This document shows positions 1-25,442 of a stretch of 36,368 nt of DNA, piece after piece. Position numbers and translations under genes: made by a program. Source of the DNA: Erysipelotrichaceae bacterium. Lineage in GTDB: Bacteria; Bacillota_I; Bacilli_A; Erysipelotrichales; Erysipelotrichaceae. The notes under the pieces were generated by a model. It searched no databases, was not told the DNA's origin, and saw only the letters and a list, made by a program, of their open reading frames with translations. The stretch is taken from positions 1 to 36,368 of the forward strand of contig JAFQZR010000012.1 in the NCBI GenBank assembly GCA_017405785.1, in the 5' to 3' direction. The number at the start of each line of letters is the position of its first letter. The stretch's first letter is position 1.

Positions 1-278
1 ATCACGACGACGATGACGATGATGAGATCTTCAAGAACCTGATCCTAAGACCGACACATATCTTTACTGAAGAAGAACTTGCCGAAATACTGTCAAACAT
101 GGAAGAAGACATCATCCGTGTCAAAGGCTATGTAAACGGTGAAAAGGGTACTCTGTATTTCAACTATGTTCTAAATGAATACAACATCTATTACTATGAC
201 ACCAGAGAGGATACTCTGGTATCCATCATCGGTACAGCCATAAACGAAGAAAGAATGAAAGAGGTATTCCATGGCTAG
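1..278 (+). CDS. CobW/COG0523-family metal GTPase, C-terminal fragment
   Basis: Open from the left edge in the frame whose first full codon is at position 3, ending with TAG at 276-278; the start lies outside the window. The visible 91 residues begin with an acidic run after a histidine (HDDDDDDE), the kind of His/Asp-rich linker that precedes the C-terminal domain in CobW proteins. The part from about residue 20 (TEEELAEIL, then VKGYVN and LYFNYV) fits the CobW C-terminal domain, where an RxKG-type strand is followed by a short beta-rich fold. COG0523 GTPases are thought to insert or traffic Zn, Co or other metals. The stop overlaps the next start by 8 bases, so the two GTPase genes are translationally coupled. 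The nucleotide-binding half is not visible, so the assignment rests on the tail and the neighbour. Confidence 0.6.
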   Translation, partial: HDDDDDDEIFKNLILRPTHIFTEEELAEILSNMEEDIIRVKGYVNGEKGTLYFNYVLNEYNIYYYDTREDTLVSIIGTAINEERMKEVFHG

Positions 279-1203
279 AATGAAGCCTGTCTATGTCTTC
301 AGCGGATTTCTGGATGCCGGAAAGACTACTGCCATAAAAGAGAGTCTACTGGATCCGGGCTTTAATCAGGGAGAAACCAACCTGATCATTGCCTTTGAAC
401 AGGGAGATGAGGAATATGATGACGATTTCCTTTTCAATTCCAATTCCTACATCGTATATCTTGATGATATAAAGGAACTAGACCGTAAGAAGATTGCCCA
501 GCTGGATGATGACTATTATCCGGACAGAATTATCATTGAACTCAACGGCATGCAGGATGACAACGAACTTTTTGCCAAGGACGGTTCTCTCAACTGGGTC
601 ATCGCTGATTATCTGACTTTCTTTGATGCCACCAGACTGAAGAACCAGATGCTTAACATGCGTCAGTTTGTCTTCAATCATGTTGTGAACTCAGCCATCT
701 GCTACATAAACAGATGCTCTGATCAGGATCTCATGTATTTCCGCAATAATCTTAAGGGAATTAACCGCTATCTGATGGTAGTTTTCCTTAACGAAGACAA
801 CAAGATCATCAACATTGAATCACAGATGTTTGATGTAACAAAGCCACTCGACATCAGTGATGATGATTTTGGCCTGTGGTACATGGATGCCCTGGATAAT
901 GCGGATAAGTATGACGGCTGCCAGATTACTCTGAAACTCAAATGGCTTGATACTGTCAAGGAATATGAAAACGTCTGTATCATGGGAAGAGAAGCCATGG
1001 TATGCTGCTCAAATGACATACAGAAGATCGGATTGACCTGTACCAATGTCGATCCGAAAAAGATCAGGAAGAAGAAATTCTATTCACTGACAGGAAAGCT
1101 CAAGGCTGTTGATGATGAAAACGGTGACAGAACAGTTATTCTCTATACCGACAGCATTACAGAAGCTGAAGCTCCTGAAGATGAATATGTGAGTTTCAAT
1201 TAA
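271..1203 (+). CDS. CobW-like P-loop GTPase with YcgQ/DUF1980-like C-terminal domain
   Basis: 310 residues. The N-terminus has a CobW-type Walker A (GFLDAGKTT, residues 12-20) and a Walker B-like strand with ELNG at about 90-93, where the family has E-(S/T)-(S/T)-G. The CxCC metal motif expected between them is missing; this stretch is acidic (QGDEEYDDD). The NKxD guanine motif is at best degenerate (NRCS near residue 146). The C-terminal third is not a CobW C-terminal domain. It resembles the C-terminal domain of YcgQ/TIGR03943 proteins: C236, the CC pair 245-246 followed by an acidic residue, then FYSLTGKL near 271-278 and a closing APEDEYV. YcgQ-type proteins sit in zinc-homeostasis loci, so a zinc or related metal role is inferred. 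The start overlaps the preceding CobW gene. GTP hydrolysis is uncertain given the degenerate motifs. Confidence 0.65.
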   Translation: MARMKPVYVFSGFLDAGKTTAIKESLLDPGFNQGETNLIIAFEQGDEEYDDDFLFNSNSYIVYLDDIKELDRKKIAQLDDDYYPDRIIIELNGMQDDNELFAKDGSLNWVIADYLTFFDATRLKNQMLNMRQFVFNHVVNSAICYINRCSDQDLMYFRNNLKGINRYLMVVFLNEDNKIINIESQMFDVTKPLDISDDDFGLWYMDALDNADKYDGCQITLKLKWLDTVKEYENVCIMGREAMVCCSNDIQKIGLTCTNVDPKKIRKKKFYSLTGKLKAVDDENGDRTVILYTDSITEAEAPEDEYVSFN

Positions 1204-2487: not shown

Positions 2488-5028
2488 ATGGAACAGTATA
2501 CAGTAACGGGAATGAGCTGTGCAGCCTGTCAGGCCAGAGTGGAAAAAGCAGTCAGCAATGTTCCGGGAGTAACCCGGTGCAGTGTATCTTTACTGACTAA
2601 TTCCATGGGTGTTGAAGGCAGTGCGGATGCGGCTGACATCATAAAGGCTGTTGAAAATGCCGGATATGGTGCATCTAAAAAAGGCGACAAAGCCAGAACC
2701 GATAAGATCAGAGAAGAAGAGGAAGCTCTGAAGGACAGGGAATCACCAGTACTTAAGAAGAGACTGATTCTTTCACTTGGTTTCTTAGCGGTTTTAATGT
2801 ATCTGTCCATGGGCCATAAAATGCTTGGCTGGCCGGTTCCTTCATTTTTGAAAGACAATCCATTATCACTGGCAATAACGGAAATGTTATTGGCTATTAC
2901 AGTAATGATCATAAATCATAAATTCTTTACTTCCGGATTTACCTCACTGATGCATGGGGCACCTAACATGGATACCCTGGTTGCCTTAGGCTCTGCTGCT
3001 TCATTTGTATATTCATTAGCTGAACTGTATATGATGTCAAATGCCATGATGACAGGTAATCACCAGACAGTACACAGTTACTACCATAATCTGTATTTTG
3101 AATCAGCGACCATGATCGTTGCCCTGATAACAGTTGGTAAACTGCTGGAAGCCATCAGCAAGGGCAGAACTACCAATGCTCTTAAGAGTCTTTTGAAGCT
3201 TGCTCCGCAGAAAGCAACCCTGATAATAAACGGTCAGGAAAAGGAAGTCGGCATTGAAGAAGTCAGTGTCGGAGATATCTTCGCCGTAAAACCGGGAGAA
3301 AGCGTACCGGTAGACGGTGTTATTGTTGAAGGCAACAGCGCCATTAATGAAGCCGCTCTGACCGGGGAAAGCATTCCTGTTGATAAGCAGGAAGGTGATC
3401 TGGTATCTGCCGCAACCATAAATCAGGCCGGTTATTTCAAAGCCAGAGCCACCAGAGTAGGTGAAGATACTACGTTATCTCAGATAATACAGATGGTATC
3501 TGATGCATCCGCTACCAAGGCTCCAATTGCCAGAATAGCCGATAAGGTATCAGGCATATTTGTACCGGCGGTAATCGGAATTGCCTTAATTACTCTGGTT
3601 ATATGGTTACTGGCAGGAAAGCCGTTCAGCTTTGCGATAGCCCGTGCCATTTCAGTACTTGTCATATCCTGCCCGTGTGCCTTAGGTCTGGCAACGCCTG
3701 TTGCCATCATGGTAGGCAACGGTGTGGGAGCTAAAAACGGTATCCTGTTCAAGAATGCCGAAGCTTTGGAGCAGGCCGGGAAAACTGACATCGTTGTTCT
3801 GGATAAGACCGGAACGATCACTACAGGACAGCCTGTGGTAACCGACATTATCGGCCTTAACGGAACCGATGAGGATTATCTGCTGAAACTGGCAAATGAC
3901 ATTGAAAGAAAGAGTGAGCATCCTTTAGCTCGTGCCATTGTTCGGTATGCTGAAGAAAAGGATGTTGTCACGACAGATGTTGATGATTTTACTGCTTTAC
4001 CAGGTAATGGTGTCAGTGCATTAAGAGATAACAGGAAGATCATTGCCGGCAGCGGTAAGTTCATGAGCAAAAAGACCGCTTTTACCAAAGATGTCATCGA
4101 GATATCAGACAAGCTGTCAGAAGAAGGAAAGACACCTCTGTTCTTCATGGAAGAAAATGAACTTAAAGGCATCATTGCGGTTGCGGATGCCATTAAGCCT
4201 GAATCTCCGGAAGCAGTAAAACAGCTGCAGAACATGGGTATTCAGGTAGTTATGCTGACGGGAGACAATCAAAAGACTGCCAGAGCTATTGGCAGGGCCG
4301 CAGGCGTTGATAATGTGGTAGCACAGGTATTACCAGACGGTAAGGAAAAAGCCATCAGAAAGCTGCAGGAAAGCGGCAGGGTGGCTATGGTCGGAGACGG
4401 CATAAATGATGCTCTTGCCCTGACTTCTGCTGATATGGGTATAGCTATCGGAGCGGGAAGCGATGTGGCGATTGATGCTGCTGATATCGTATTAATGAAG
4501 TCTTCGTTACTGGATGTCCCGGCAGCGATCAGGCTGTCCAGAAAGACTGTTACGAATATTCATCAGAATCTGTTCTGGGCATTCTTCTATAACATCATCT
4601 GCATACCATTGGCAGCCGGTTTATATCAGGCGATATTCAAGGTTAACTGGCAGATGACACCGATGCTGGGAGCTGCAGCCATGAGCCTGTCAAGTTTCAC
4701 GGTCTGTTCAAATGCCTTAAGACTGAATCTGGAAAACATATATGATGCCAGTAAAGATAAAGCTAGTAAGAATAAGACAATTAAGATTGAAGATATTGAA
4801 TTAAAGGAGGAAGAAACCATGACAAAGACTATCAGAATTGAAGGAATGATGTGTGAACACTGCGAAGCAACAGTCAAGAAAGCTCTGCAGAAGATCGACG
4901 GAGTTGTCAGTGCCGAAGTATCACATGTAGCTGGAACAGCCATTGTTACTCTGGAAAAGGATGTTGACAATGAAATCATGAAGACAGCCATTGAAGACAG
5001 AGACTATACCGTACTGGGAATTGAGTAA
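2488..5028 (+). CDS. copA: Copper-exporting P1B-type ATPase with fused C-terminal CopZ-like domain
   Basis: 846 residues. It pumps Cu(I) out of the cytoplasm using ATP. An N-terminal heavy-metal domain carries GMSCAAC (Cys11, Cys14). Eight membrane segments are expected; the sixth holds the CPC copper site (395-397). The actuator has TGES (292-295), the phosphorylation motif is DKTGT with Asp439, the nucleotide domain has His478-Pro479 of the HP motif, and GDGIND is at 636-641. The FWAFFYN and MSLSS motifs of the last two helices are present. A typical Bacillota CopA would end near residue 760. Here a lysine-rich linker leads into a second heavy-metal domain with GMMCEHC, the whole length of a free CopZ chaperone, beginning at Met778. 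An ideal ribosome-binding site precedes Met778, so a separate CopZ may also be made. Weak purine-rich SD (AAAAGAGAG) at the main start. First gene of the copper operon. Confidence 0.95.
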   Translation: MEQYTVTGMSCAACQARVEKAVSNVPGVTRCSVSLLTNSMGVEGSADAADIIKAVENAGYGASKKGDKARTDKIREEEEALKDRESPVLKKRLILSLGFLAVLMYLSMGHKMLGWPVPSFLKDNPLSLAITEMLLAITVMIINHKFFTSGFTSLMHGAPNMDTLVALGSAASFVYSLAELYMMSNAMMTGNHQTVHSYYHNLYFESATMIVALITVGKLLEAISKGRTTNALKSLLKLAPQKATLIINGQEKEVGIEEVSVGDIFAVKPGESVPVDGVIVEGNSAINEAALTGESIPVDKQEGDLVSAATINQAGYFKARATRVGEDTTLSQIIQMVSDASATKAPIARIADKVSGIFVPAVIGIALITLVIWLLAGKPFSFAIARAISVLVISCPCALGLATPVAIMVGNGVGAKNGILFKNAEALEQAGKTDIVVLDKTGTITTGQPVVTDIIGLNGTDEDYLLKLANDIERKSEHPLARAIVRYAEEKDVVTTDVDDFTALPGNGVSALRDNRKIIAGSGKFMSKKTAFTKDVIEISDKLSEEGKTPLFFMEENELKGIIAVADAIKPESPEAVKQLQNMGIQVVMLTGDNQKTARAIGRAAGVDNVVAQVLPDGKEKAIRKLQESGRVAMVGDGINDALALTSADMGIAIGAGSDVAIDAADIVLMKSSLLDVPAAIRLSRKTVTNIHQNLFWAFFYNIICIPLAAGLYQAIFKVNWQMTPMLGAAAMSLSSFTVCSNALRLNLENIYDASKDKASKNKTIKIEDIELKEEETMTKTIRIEGMMCEHCEATVKKALQKIDGVVSAEVSHVAGTAIVTLEKDVDNEIMKTAIEDRDYTVLGIE
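4805..4821 (+). promoter_or_regulatory. Internal ribosome-binding site and start codon for a CopZ-like peptide
   Basis: AGGAGG at 4805-4810, eight bases, then ATG at 4819-4821, in frame with copA (codon 778). It is a stronger SD than that of copA itself. Initiation here would give a 69-residue CopZ-like protein ending at 5028 (start MTKTIRIEG, metal motif CEHC). Confidence 0.7.
4819..5028 (+). CDS. copZ: Possible separately translated CopZ-like copper chaperone nested in copA
   Basis: This is the in-frame 3' end of copA read from the internal ATG. The 69-residue product is one complete HMA domain: beta strand TIRIEG, MMCEHC copper site, helix ATVKKALQKI, then DGVVSAEV and a final DYTVLGIE strand. 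Its size matches stand-alone CopZ chaperones, which carry Cu(I) to CopA and to CsoR. Escherichia coli makes a chaperone from copA by programmed frameshifting; here internal initiation would reach a similar end. Whether the free protein is made is inferred from the ribosome-binding site alone. The alternative is a simple gene fusion that kept the old translation signal of copZ. Confidence 0.55.
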   Translation: MTKTIRIEGMMCEHCEATVKKALQKIDGVVSAEVSHVAGTAIVTLEKDVDNEIMKTAIEDRDYTVLGIE

Positions 5029-5029
5029 T

Positions 5030-5323
5030 ATGGAAGAATGCTGCACCAAACATAAGGAAAGGTCTCCTGAAGAGATCAGAGCGCTTACTAACAGACTCAA
5101 CCGCATCGAGGGCCAGATCAAGGGACTTAAGAAAATGATTGATGAAGAGCGTTATTGCGTAGACATCATCACCCAGGTTTCTTCCGTTCAGGCTGCTCTT
5201 AATGCCTTCCAGAGAGAGCTTCTGAACAGCCACATCAAGTCATGTGTTGTCACTGACATCCGTAATGGCAATGAAGAAGCCGTAGATGAACTCTGCGGTC
5301 TATTGCAGAAAACCATGAAATAG
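5030..5323 (+). CDS. csoR: Copper-sensing transcriptional repressor CsoR
   Basis: 97 residues, all helical. The Cu(I) ligands of the family are in place: Cys43 (RYCVDII), His68 and Cys72 (HIKSC). The signature RLNRIEGQIKGLKKMI lies at about 22-37, with DNA-contacting basic residues, and the N-terminus adds an extra CC pair and a histidine (CCTKH). CsoR tetramers bind a G-tract operator and release it on Cu(I) binding. The start at 5030 is one base after the copA stop; an upstream in-frame TTG at 4991 would add 13 residues encoded inside copA and is unlikely. Translation is probably coupled to copA. It should repress its own operon through the element at 2442-2463. RcnR/FrmR relatives have different ligand sets, so CsoR is favoured. 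Confidence 0.92.
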   Translation: MEECCTKHKERSPEEIRALTNRLNRIEGQIKGLKKMIDEERYCVDIITQVSSVQAALNAFQRELLNSHIKSCVVTDIRNGNEEAVDELCGLLQKTMK

Positions 5324-5334
5324 GGAGGGATTGC

Positions 5335-6375
5335 ATGAGTGAAAAGAAAGGACTCGGACGGACAATAGAAAAGTTTGTTTTCCTGGTAAAAAGAAAATTC
5401 AGGAAAGACAAACTGGCAATGCGGGGCAAACCGCAGTATACCGTAAATCAGAATAACATCTTCCTGCAGCTCAAGCCCGGTGATATTTTCCTGGGCAAAA
5501 TGCCAATGTCAGACAGTGAACTTTATGACGTACCGGATGGACATCGTCACAGACCTTATCTGGTAATTAAGAAGAATAAAAAGAATGTAACAGCCTTGCA
5601 GGGTTCTCACCGCCAGTACGGCCGGGATAAGGAAACCTTTAAGATCATCCTGCCGGACTTTGGCCAGTATAACGGTGAAACGTATTTCAGTACCCTGGAA
5701 ACCTTTGAGGTTCCGATTGAAAACATTAACAAGTACATATCTTCTTTAACAGACAGTCAGATGTCCGCTCTGCAGAGAATGCTGACGGTTCAGGAAAAAG
5801 GTTCAGCTAAGATAAATAGTCTGGACAATGTTCCTGTAAAGTTCAAGATGGGTGATATCGTCAGCGACGGTAAAAACACATATCTGGTCACTAACGACAA
5901 GGATGGAGTTGCCAAGGGTTATCTGCTGGGAAAAAAGACGTACCGTAACGGTTTCAGTATCATGCTGAATAACGAGCAGTATCACGCCGACATCTATCAG
6001 TACAAGATCCTTAACGGCAATAATCTTGAGCTTGTTACGACTCTCAATAAAAACAGAATGACAGAGCTGCACCGTTTCCTCAGTGCCGGTGTCTTTGTGA
6101 AAGTCGGAGACATAATCAAGATCGGCAATGAATACTTTTACGTATTCAAGACTTACCGTGATGAGATACAGACCTATCCGCTGTCAAACAAGAAATCCGC
6201 TAATACCATAAAAGTGAATTTCGGTAAAAAGGAAATGTATCTGAATCCACGTAAAGTAGTGAAGTTCAGCAATCTGAGAAGAGATGTTGTCTATTACAGC
6301 GGCAATGAAAAGCTGATAAACTACGTTAACATCAACCGTAAGAACATAAAGGTCAAGGAAGATAAGAAAATGTAA
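5335..6375 (+). CDS. Protein of three repeated PemK/SH3-like units, function unknown
   Basis: 346 residues, not recognised with certainty. A basic N-terminus (about 40 residues) precedes three units that each begin with a GDI motif: residues 49-51 (LKPGDIFLG), 173-175 (FKMGDIV) and 258-260 (VKVGDII). Units 1 and 2 also share a closing helix (MSALQRML and MTELHRFL). Unit 1, with GDIF, then HRPYLVI and a late helix, resembles the PemK/MazF barrel, but no antitoxin gene is adjacent and the toxin active-site residues cannot be confirmed. No signal peptide or membrane segment. It follows csoR by 11 bases with AGGGAGGG upstream, so it belongs to the copper operon, though nothing in it suggests metal binding (few Cys/His). 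A terminator follows directly. Confidence 0.5.
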   Translation: MSEKKGLGRTIEKFVFLVKRKFRKDKLAMRGKPQYTVNQNNIFLQLKPGDIFLGKMPMSDSELYDVPDGHRHRPYLVIKKNKKNVTALQGSHRQYGRDKETFKIILPDFGQYNGETYFSTLETFEVPIENINKYISSLTDSQMSALQRMLTVQEKGSAKINSLDNVPVKFKMGDIVSDGKNTYLVTNDKDGVAKGYLLGKKTYRNGFSIMLNNEQYHADIYQYKILNGNNLELVTTLNKNRMTELHRFLSAGVFVKVGDIIKIGNEYFYVFKTYRDEIQTYPLSNKKSANTIKVNFGKKEMYLNPRKVVKFSNLRRDVVYYSGNEKLINYVNINRKNIKVKEDKKM

Positions 6376-24086: not shown

Positions 24087-24111
24087 ATAAATGACAGAGA
24101 AGGGCCTTTAT

Positions 24112-24777
24112 ATGTACGAAATATATGAAACAAAAGAAAGAATAATGGCCGATAATGAAGCGGAAGCAGCTAAGCTGAGAGCTTTATTACGTGAAAACGG
24201 TACATTCATGGTCAACCTGATGGGTTCACCTGGTTCCGGAAAGACAAGTGTACTGATAAAGACTATTGAACGGCTCAAGGAAAAATACCGTATTGCGGTA
24301 ATGGAAGCAGATGTGGATTCCAGCGTTGATGCGGAAACCGTCAGTAAGCTTGGCGTAAAAGTCATTCAGCTGCATTCAGGCGGATTATGTCACATGGATG
24401 CAGACATGACAGCCAGAGGAGTTGACAGATTAGGCATTGAAGGAATTGATCTGTTATTCCTGGAGAATATCGGAAATCTTGTTTGCCCCGCAGAATTTGA
24501 TGTTGGAGCAGCTCTCAAGGTAATGATCCTGTCTGTTCCGGAGGGTGATGACAAGCCTCTGAAGTATCCTCTGATGTTTACCGTCAGCAATGTCATGCTG
24601 ATAAACAAGATAGATGCCTTACCTGTATTTGACTTTGATGCCGATAAGGCACTGGAAAGAGCCAGAAAGCTTAATCCCGAGATCATTTGCTTCCAGATCA
24701 GCGCTGTTAAGGACATCGGCATGGAAGAATGGATCAGCTGGCTGGATCAGAAGATAGGAGAATGGAGGAAACGGTTA
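24112..24777 (+). CDS. hypB: HypB-type nickel-binding GTPase, first copy
   Basis: Ends with TGA at 24778-24780, so the coding span is 24112-24780 (222 residues). HypB is a GTPase that delivers Ni(II) to hydrogenase or urease precursors with HypA. P-loop GSPGSGKT (38-45), switch region MEADVDSSVDAE, and the family signature ENIGNLVCP (118-126). The G-domain metal site is complete: Cys93 and His94 in GLCHMD, and Cys125. NKID serves as the guanine motif. There is no N-terminal CxxCGC nickel motif and no His-rich stretch. Start at 24112 because AGAAGGG lies eight bases upstream; an ATG at 24091 falls right behind the -10. A second, similar HypB follows with a four-base overlap. Confidence 0.88.
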
Positions 24778-25442
24778 TGAGAGTAATTGAATTGCATAAG
24801 TCCGTTACTGACTCCAATGACAGAGACGCTGCACAGTTAAGAGCACAGCTGGAAGAAAAGGGTATTTTACTGGTAAATCTGATGAGTTCAGCAGGTTCCG
24901 GTAAGACAACATTGCTGGAAAGAACAATCAGAGATCTAAACGATAAAGTCAGAATTGCTGTACTGGAAGCAGATATAGATGCATCGGTAGATGCTGAAAG
25001 AATACAGGCTATAGGAGCAAAGAGCATTCAGGTTCATACCGACGGCATGTGTCACATGGATGCCGGAATGACCCGTAAAGGTCTGGAAGCGATGGGACTT
25101 GAAGATACGGATATAGCATTTCTCGAGAACATCGGCAATCTTATCTGTCCGGCTGAATACGATACCGGTGCCAGCAGAAATGTCATGATCCTGTCCGTAC
25201 CGGAAGGAGACGACAAACCGCTGAAGTATCCGTTAATGTTCATCAAGAGCAATGCTCTTCTGATAACCAAGATAGATACCATGTCATACTTCACATTTGA
25301 CATGGATAAGTGTATTGAGAGAGTAAGATATCTCAATCCGGATATCAGGATATTCCCGTTATCCGCTAAAACCGGAGAAGGAATGAAAGAATGGGAAGAA
25401 TGGCTGTGCCGGCAGCTCAGAGAAATCAAAGCAGAGGTGTAA
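24777..25442 (+). CDS. hypB: HypB-type nickel-binding GTPase, second copy
   Basis: 221 residues, clearly a paralogue of the preceding gene along the whole length. P-loop SSAGSGKTT (37-45), metal ligands Cys92-His93 (GMCHMD) and Cys124 in ENIGNLICP. The guanine motif is altered: TKID where the first copy has NKID, so nucleotide preference or affinity may differ. HypB works as a dimer, so the two copies could form a heterodimer or serve different targets. ATG at 24777 shares bases with the TGA of copy one (ATGA) and has GGAGG upstream; an upstream start at 24729 would lie inside copy one without an SD. Three bases separate it from the flavoprotein gene. Confidence 0.88.
   Translation: MRVIELHKSVTDSNDRDAAQLRAQLEEKGILLVNLMSSAGSGKTTLLERTIRDLNDKVRIAVLEADIDASVDAERIQAIGAKSIQVHTDGMCHMDAGMTRKGLEAMGLEDTDIAFLENIGNLICPAEYDTGASRNVMILSVPEGDDKPLKYPLMFIKSNALLITKIDTMSYFTFDMDKCIERVRYLNPDIRIFPLSAKTGEGMKEWEEWLCRQLREIKAEV

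Follow-up and report, generated by a model that had tools for sequence, protein, structure and literature searches.

A CobW-type GTPase without a CxCC motif, fused to a DUF1980_C domain and encoded beside a canonical CobW protein in Erysipelotrichaceae

The stretch of DNA analysed here (hereinafter the window; 36,368 nucleotides of an Erysipelotrichaceae genome) encodes near its start a 310-residue protein in which a CobW-type G3E GTPase is joined directly to DUF1980_C, the C-terminal domain of YcgQ. The fusion contains no CxCC motif and directly follows the gene of a second, canonical CobW protein. We tentatively read the two, with a little less than even confidence, as a conserved cytoplasmic two-GTPase module for metal trafficking, formed by a CxCC-containing CobW and a dedicated CxCC-less sister that carries a Cys-Cys OB domain. 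The features on which this reading is based are as follows.

3-278, + strand: CobW_C tail of the partner, a canonical CobW truncated by the contig start (CobW_C, 29.7 bits; cut-off 22)
271-278, + strand: 8-base overlap of the partner's stop and the fusion's start (read from the sequence)
271-1203, + strand: fusion of a CobW-type G3E GTPase and DUF1980_C, without CxCC, 310 residues (Pfam, TIGR03943)
286-825, + strand: GTPase domain of the fusion, residues ~6-185, with GFLDAGKTT, E43-x-G45, E90-x-N92-G93 and N147-R148 (31 relatives, solved folds)
826-1200, + strand: DUF1980_C domain of the fusion, residues ~186-310, with R240-x4-C245-C246-x2-D249 and an OB-fold model (Pfam, model, invariant residues)

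The open reading frame starts with ATG, and the sequence AGAGGT lies 5 bases 5' of the start codon. Pfam cobW matches residues 6-124 (24.7 bits; cut-off 20.7) and Pfam DUF1980_C matches residues 186-307 (37.8 bits; cut-off 25.9), confirming the claim of an initial annotation that a CobW protein and the C-terminal part of YcgQ are fused directly. That annotation placed the start of the second domain at residue 220; the domain is real, and its start is near residue 186. The NCBIfam model of YcgQ, TIGR03943, matches residues 189-306 with an E-value of 4.6e-12. The match covers the last 117 of the 221 model positions (105-221), and its score of 45.8 bits is below the whole-protein equivalog cut-off of 88.8. 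Comparison with two relatives gives a dN/dS of ~0.07, which indicates that the fusion gene is under purifying selection. An assembly or frame artefact is ruled out by this ratio and by the intact relatives found in many genomes.

Alignment of 31 relatives defines the conserved residues of both domains. Specifically, G-K-T of the P-loop, E43, G45, E90, N92, G93, N147 and R148 of the GTPase domain are invariant, as are R240, C245, C246 and D249 of the tail. Among the cysteines named in the initial annotation, the C245-C246 pair thus stands out, while C236 is conserved in only 7 of the 31. Neither the fusion nor any of the aligned relatives has a CxCC or CxxC between residues 30 and 110, in agreement with the earlier statement that the CxCC motif is lost. 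In an HMM alignment to YjiA, Glu37 of YjiA corresponds to A41 of the fusion, with no acidic equivalent, while E43-x-G45 aligns with E-F-G of the YjiA ENEFGE segment, whose second acidic residue corresponds to the invariant E43. In PDB entry 4ixn, Glu37 of YjiA is mutated along with Cys66 and Cys67. Because CxCC is absent and there is no acidic counterpart of Glu37, the whole switch-I metal site has been lost from the fusion. The G4 motif was previously described as a degenerate NKxD. More precisely, N-R is invariant among the relatives and D is the fourth residue in 17 of 31, with NRCS in the protein of the window. Judged by these motifs, the fusion likely binds GTP.

An AlphaFold2 model of the fusion, calculated from the 31-sequence alignment, has a mean pLDDT of 90.6 and contains no membrane part. 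The nearest solved folds to the GTPase part are HypB (2wsm; Z 14.1, 3.2 Å over 160 residues) and YjiA (1nij; Z 13.5, 2.9 Å over 170 residues), in agreement with Foldseek; UreG (4hi0) has a Z of 12.4. Profile alignment of residues 4-168 to YjiA gives E-values of 3e-10 to 1e-9. A sequence-based search of solved structures returned YjiA for the GTPase part and no convincing match for the tail. Modelled alone, the tail has a pLDDT of 91.5, and its neighbours are OB folds, namely SSB and chains of the CST complex by Foldseek, and chain 8d0b_C of the CST complex in a separate comparison (Z 9.3, 3.5 Å over 99 residues). The tail therefore models as an OB fold and not as CobW_C. Residues 220-310, where a CobW_C fold and no similarity to YcgQ would have refuted the initial annotation, lie largely in the region that matches DUF1980_C and TIGR03943. 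The model is less certain in some parts, among them the loop at C245-C246 (block pLDDT of ~75 to 80).

The upstream gene had been described as another CobW gene, with an apparently normal tail and an 8-base overlap with the fusion, and both the CobW_C match and the overlap are found in the window. The overlap suggests translational coupling. The tail in the window and residues 237-326 of a near relative's partner are 86% identical. The first 240 residues of a partner, with GCICC and a His-rich loop, are encoded at the end of contig C6 of the same genome (G000:C6:58387-59108). The end of C6 and the start of the window share no exact overlap; we infer that they carry the two halves of one gene, because the partner is intact in the nearest relative, in which the fusion is 84% identical and the same rseP-like gene lies upstream. 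In several genomes, contigs end within the His/Asp-rich repeat of the partner, leaving the pair often split in metagenome-assembled genomes (MAGs). Assemblies thus seem to break at this repeat.

In 38 oriented loci, the fusion is directly preceded by a gene for a second CobW, at a spacing of -35 to +17 bases, a range partly due to start choice. CxCC and a His-rich stretch are present in all 35 complete partners, and the CobW_C tail is present wherever it was tested. Among 145 Erysipelotrichaceae genomes, 71 have both proteins, 2 the fusion only, 9 the partner only and 63 neither (Fisher p 1.7e-28, with relatedness uncorrected). The partner adjoins the fusion on the same strand in 66 of 73 genomes. 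In six of the other seven the fusion lies less than 500 bases from a contig start, and the seventh, G140, was outside this check. Three strong partner-only cases are at or near a contig end, while the remaining ones, with weaker matches, are probably other COG0523 genes. The pair is also found in Clostridia. In a tree of the GTPase domains, a fully supported branch separates all fusions from all partners; the split is therefore old. Distances among fusions and among partners correlate (r 0.58), as co-inheritance alone would also produce. The outer neighbours of the pair vary among lineages, indicating that the pair itself is the unit.

Full-length relatives of the fusion are present in 73 of the 145 Erysipelotrichaceae genomes, in 28 of 59 genera. 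A phylum-wide draw found them in 57 of 392 genomes, 24 from the same family, 15 from another family of its order and 18 from other families of the class. DUF1980_C is found in 199 of 294 genomes of the order, mostly in open reading frames of ~310-330 residues. The named relatives are Erysipelotrichaceae MAGs, and the host of the fusion is a gut-type bacterium. Two Clostridia, Vescimonas fastidiosa and Subdoligranulum variabile, carry the fusion on large replicons, matching over 98-100% of its length with cobW and DUF1980_C both above the Pfam cut-offs; this Clostridia sample consists of two plasmid-collection records. The viral contigs searched contained no relative. In the public record inspected, the pair is annotated as 'CobW family GTP-binding protein' and 'GTP-binding protein', and nothing further. 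A literature search, with most subscription journals outside its coverage, returned no paper on a fusion of CobW with DUF1980 or an OB fold, or on TIGR03943.

DUF1980_C also occurs in a second setting. Five genomes of the family (L100, L101, L102, L103 and L104) encode a DUF1980_C protein of ~180 residues with a lipoprotein-like N-terminal signal. In all five, this protein is encoded last in a ZnuA-ZnuC-ZnuB operon, which in four begins with a FUR-type regulator (names by sequence appearance). Four aligned members share R-x2-PGCC-x-NDG. The lipoproteins align with the tails of the fusions with an hhalign probability of 95.9 (E 5.2e-9), and the CC-x2-D motif is present in both. Because the lipoproteins end ZnuACB operons, the domain is found beside zinc transport independently of CobW. 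From their signals they are presumably located outside the cytoplasm, and they possibly are an extracytoplasmic zinc-handling component. The genome of the window has a FUR-ZnuA-ZnuC-ZnuB operon of its own (names by Pfam) on contig C2, the last gene of which encodes a lipoprotein-like protein of 194 residues (L118:5573-6154) that contains a Cys-Cys pair and matches no Pfam family. This distant relative of the DUF1980_C lipoproteins aligns with them (probability 95.5, E 1.6e-8), partly through the signal region, and its direct alignment to the tails of the fusions is weak (probability 14). The connection of DUF1980_C to zinc is thus indirect and comes from operon context in proteins other than the fusion. 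For the fusion itself, the link to zinc is likewise indirect, through the His-rich, CxCC-containing companion and the lipoproteins of ZnuACB operons.

The fusion was compared with four known groups of proteins. With COG0523/CobW proteins (YjiA, ZigA, ZagA and CobW) it has the GTPase fold and the P-loop in common, whereas CxCC, the equivalent of Glu37 and CobW_C are missing, the last being replaced by DUF1980_C. In addition, the fusion has E-x-N-G where these proteins have E-x-S/T-G, and its G4 motif is N-R. All COG0523 members have been described as containing CXCC, and Rv0106 as deviating by its lack of the GTPase motifs (Haas et al. 2009; PMC2770081). With YcgQ/TIGR03943/DUF1980 proteins (ScfB of group A Streptococcus) the fusion shares the C-terminal domain. 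Unlike them, it lacks the membrane segments, is joined to a GTPase and has no permease partner. ScfAB are membrane-associated proteins of unknown function, and YcgQ/ScfB contributes to the fitness of a pathogen but has no known activity (PMC5584981). The lipoproteins of ZnuACB operons have the domain and CC-x2-D as in the fusion, but are ~180 residues long, begin with a lipoprotein-like signal and have no GTPase domain. The nickel GTPases HypB and UreG have the same G3E fold, but other metal motifs, other operons and no OB domain. Because the fusion has neither the CxCC and CobW_C of COG0523 nor the full-length match and the permease link of YcgQ, we class it as a G3E/CobW variant outside both families.

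These features can be combined in a mechanism. COG0523 proteins bind zinc and are widely studied as zinc chaperones. The upstream protein would be a canonical metallochaperone GTPase of this group, in which the CxCC site and the His-rich loop probably bind zinc. The fusion would be its dedicated sister subunit. Having lost a metal site of its own, the fusion would contribute an OB-fold DUF1980_C with R-x4-CC-x2-D in place of the switch-I site, and it probably still binds GTP. Because dimerisation is a feature of G3E GTPases such as HypB and UreG, the GTPase domains of the two proteins may pair as an asymmetric heterodimer, although operon pairing is no proof of a complex. GTP binding or hydrolysis would shift metal between the partner's CxCC/His site and the Cys-Cys pair in the OB domain; alternatively, it might dock the complex on a client. 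Points against the module include the failure to find a Zur box or another zinc-response signal upstream of the pair, the indirect connection of DUF1980_C to zinc, the less certain loop at C245-C246, the fourth G4 residue, which is not D in the fusion of the window, and the many non-metal uses of OB folds.

A more specific version is a two-subunit G3E machine, in which a CobW loaded with metal and its sister without CxCC, which provides an OB Cys-Cys acceptor, move zinc by GTP-driven cycling of the heterodimer, DUF1980_C being a general zinc-relay domain. We regard this version as doubtful. If it were true, DUF1980_C would act as a zinc relay in the cytoplasm, in YcgQ and on the extracellular lipoproteins of zinc importers. 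Independently of this version, the pair, in which a widespread sister GTPase with another candidate metal domain is closely tied to a canonical CobW, is a natural two-part system for studying metal handover by COG0523 proteins. It also gives functional work on DUF1980_C, which YcgQ/ScfB contains as well, a first starting point.

The fusion might instead be the main client, or acceptor, of its partner. The canonical CobW would then insert metal at the Cys-Cys site of DUF1980_C, and the fusion would work alone as a metal-dependent GTP switch. The one-to-one pairing with a CxCC CobW, the invariance of R-x4-CC-x2-D and the absence of a metal site in the GTPase domain of the fusion would all be consistent with such a role. 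However, the GTPase domain is conserved at least as well as the tail (nearest comparison: dN of 0.086 versus 0.134). An active part would explain this better than a carrier would, and we consider the client role unlikely.

The OB fold could also bind nucleic acid or another ligand, in which case the fusion would have left metal biology. The neighbours of the tail in the PDB include TEN1, SSB, MCM and tRNA-synthetase domains, in line with such a function. These matches, however, are generic to the OB fold (Z ~9, ~10-15% identity), a level that is uninformative on the ligand, while by sequence the tail is related to YcgQ and to the zinc-operon lipoproteins, which share its CC motif, and the fusion is paired with a metal GTPase. 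A departure from metal biology is therefore quite improbable.

A soluble stand-in for YcgQ, working with a YcgR-type permease to export or import zinc, would account for the identity of the domain, and the initial annotation pointed towards a YcgR/YcgQ permease complex. This direction was not borne out. No PF03773 (YcgR-type) permease was found in the genome of the window or in its genus, and permease and fusion are anti-associated in the family (14/59/34/38 genomes with both, the fusion only, the permease only and neither; p 4e-4, relatedness uncorrected). Many of the PF03773 matches are ~340 residues long and may be ArsP rather than YcgR; counting all of them as permeases favours the permease hypothesis. 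The genes upstream of the pair in this genome, where a search for a permease and a Zur box had been advised, are ftsK, pyrH, frr, uppS, cdsA, dxr and rseP, judged from the look of their sequences rather than from a family search. No conserved third gene accompanies the pair in 38 loci, in which part of the neighbours were identified. The known boxes of Zur (B. subtilis), AdcR and Fur, which may not be the box of the host, are not enriched upstream of the pairs over shuffles, and the zinc-operon box of the relatives, TGAAAATNATTTTCA, to which the same applies, shows no clear enrichment there. The zinc-operon box of three relatives, TGAAAATGATTTTCA, was not found in the window; upstream of the pair its best matches come marginally nearer than those in shuffled sequences, with none within 2 mismatches. 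Together with the absence of a membrane part from the model, the permease counts and the lack of a conserved third gene make the stand-in very unlikely.

A copper function, suggested by a gene for a CopA-like P-type ATPase with two HMA domains (2488-5028) and an overlapping CsoR-type repressor gene (4991-5323) downstream in the window and by a CopA-sized gene of the same kind that adjoins the pair in the near relative L032, is highly improbable and was dropped, as the arrangement is not kept in L082, of the same genus, or at the remaining loci, and the partner is His-rich with CxCC like the zinc-binding COG0523 proteins.

Two other regions of the window were noticed. At 24091-25442, two overlapping tandem genes encode HypB-like G3E GTPases of 229 and 237 residues, followed by a 932-residue protein resembling Fe-S/NAD(P)-linked oxidoreductases, with no hydrogenase genes noticed nearby (all by eye). 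At 5335-6375, a 346-residue protein has a weak PemK/MazF-like match (18.9 bits, below the cut-off of 23.1), and a similar gene is located downstream of the pair in L032.
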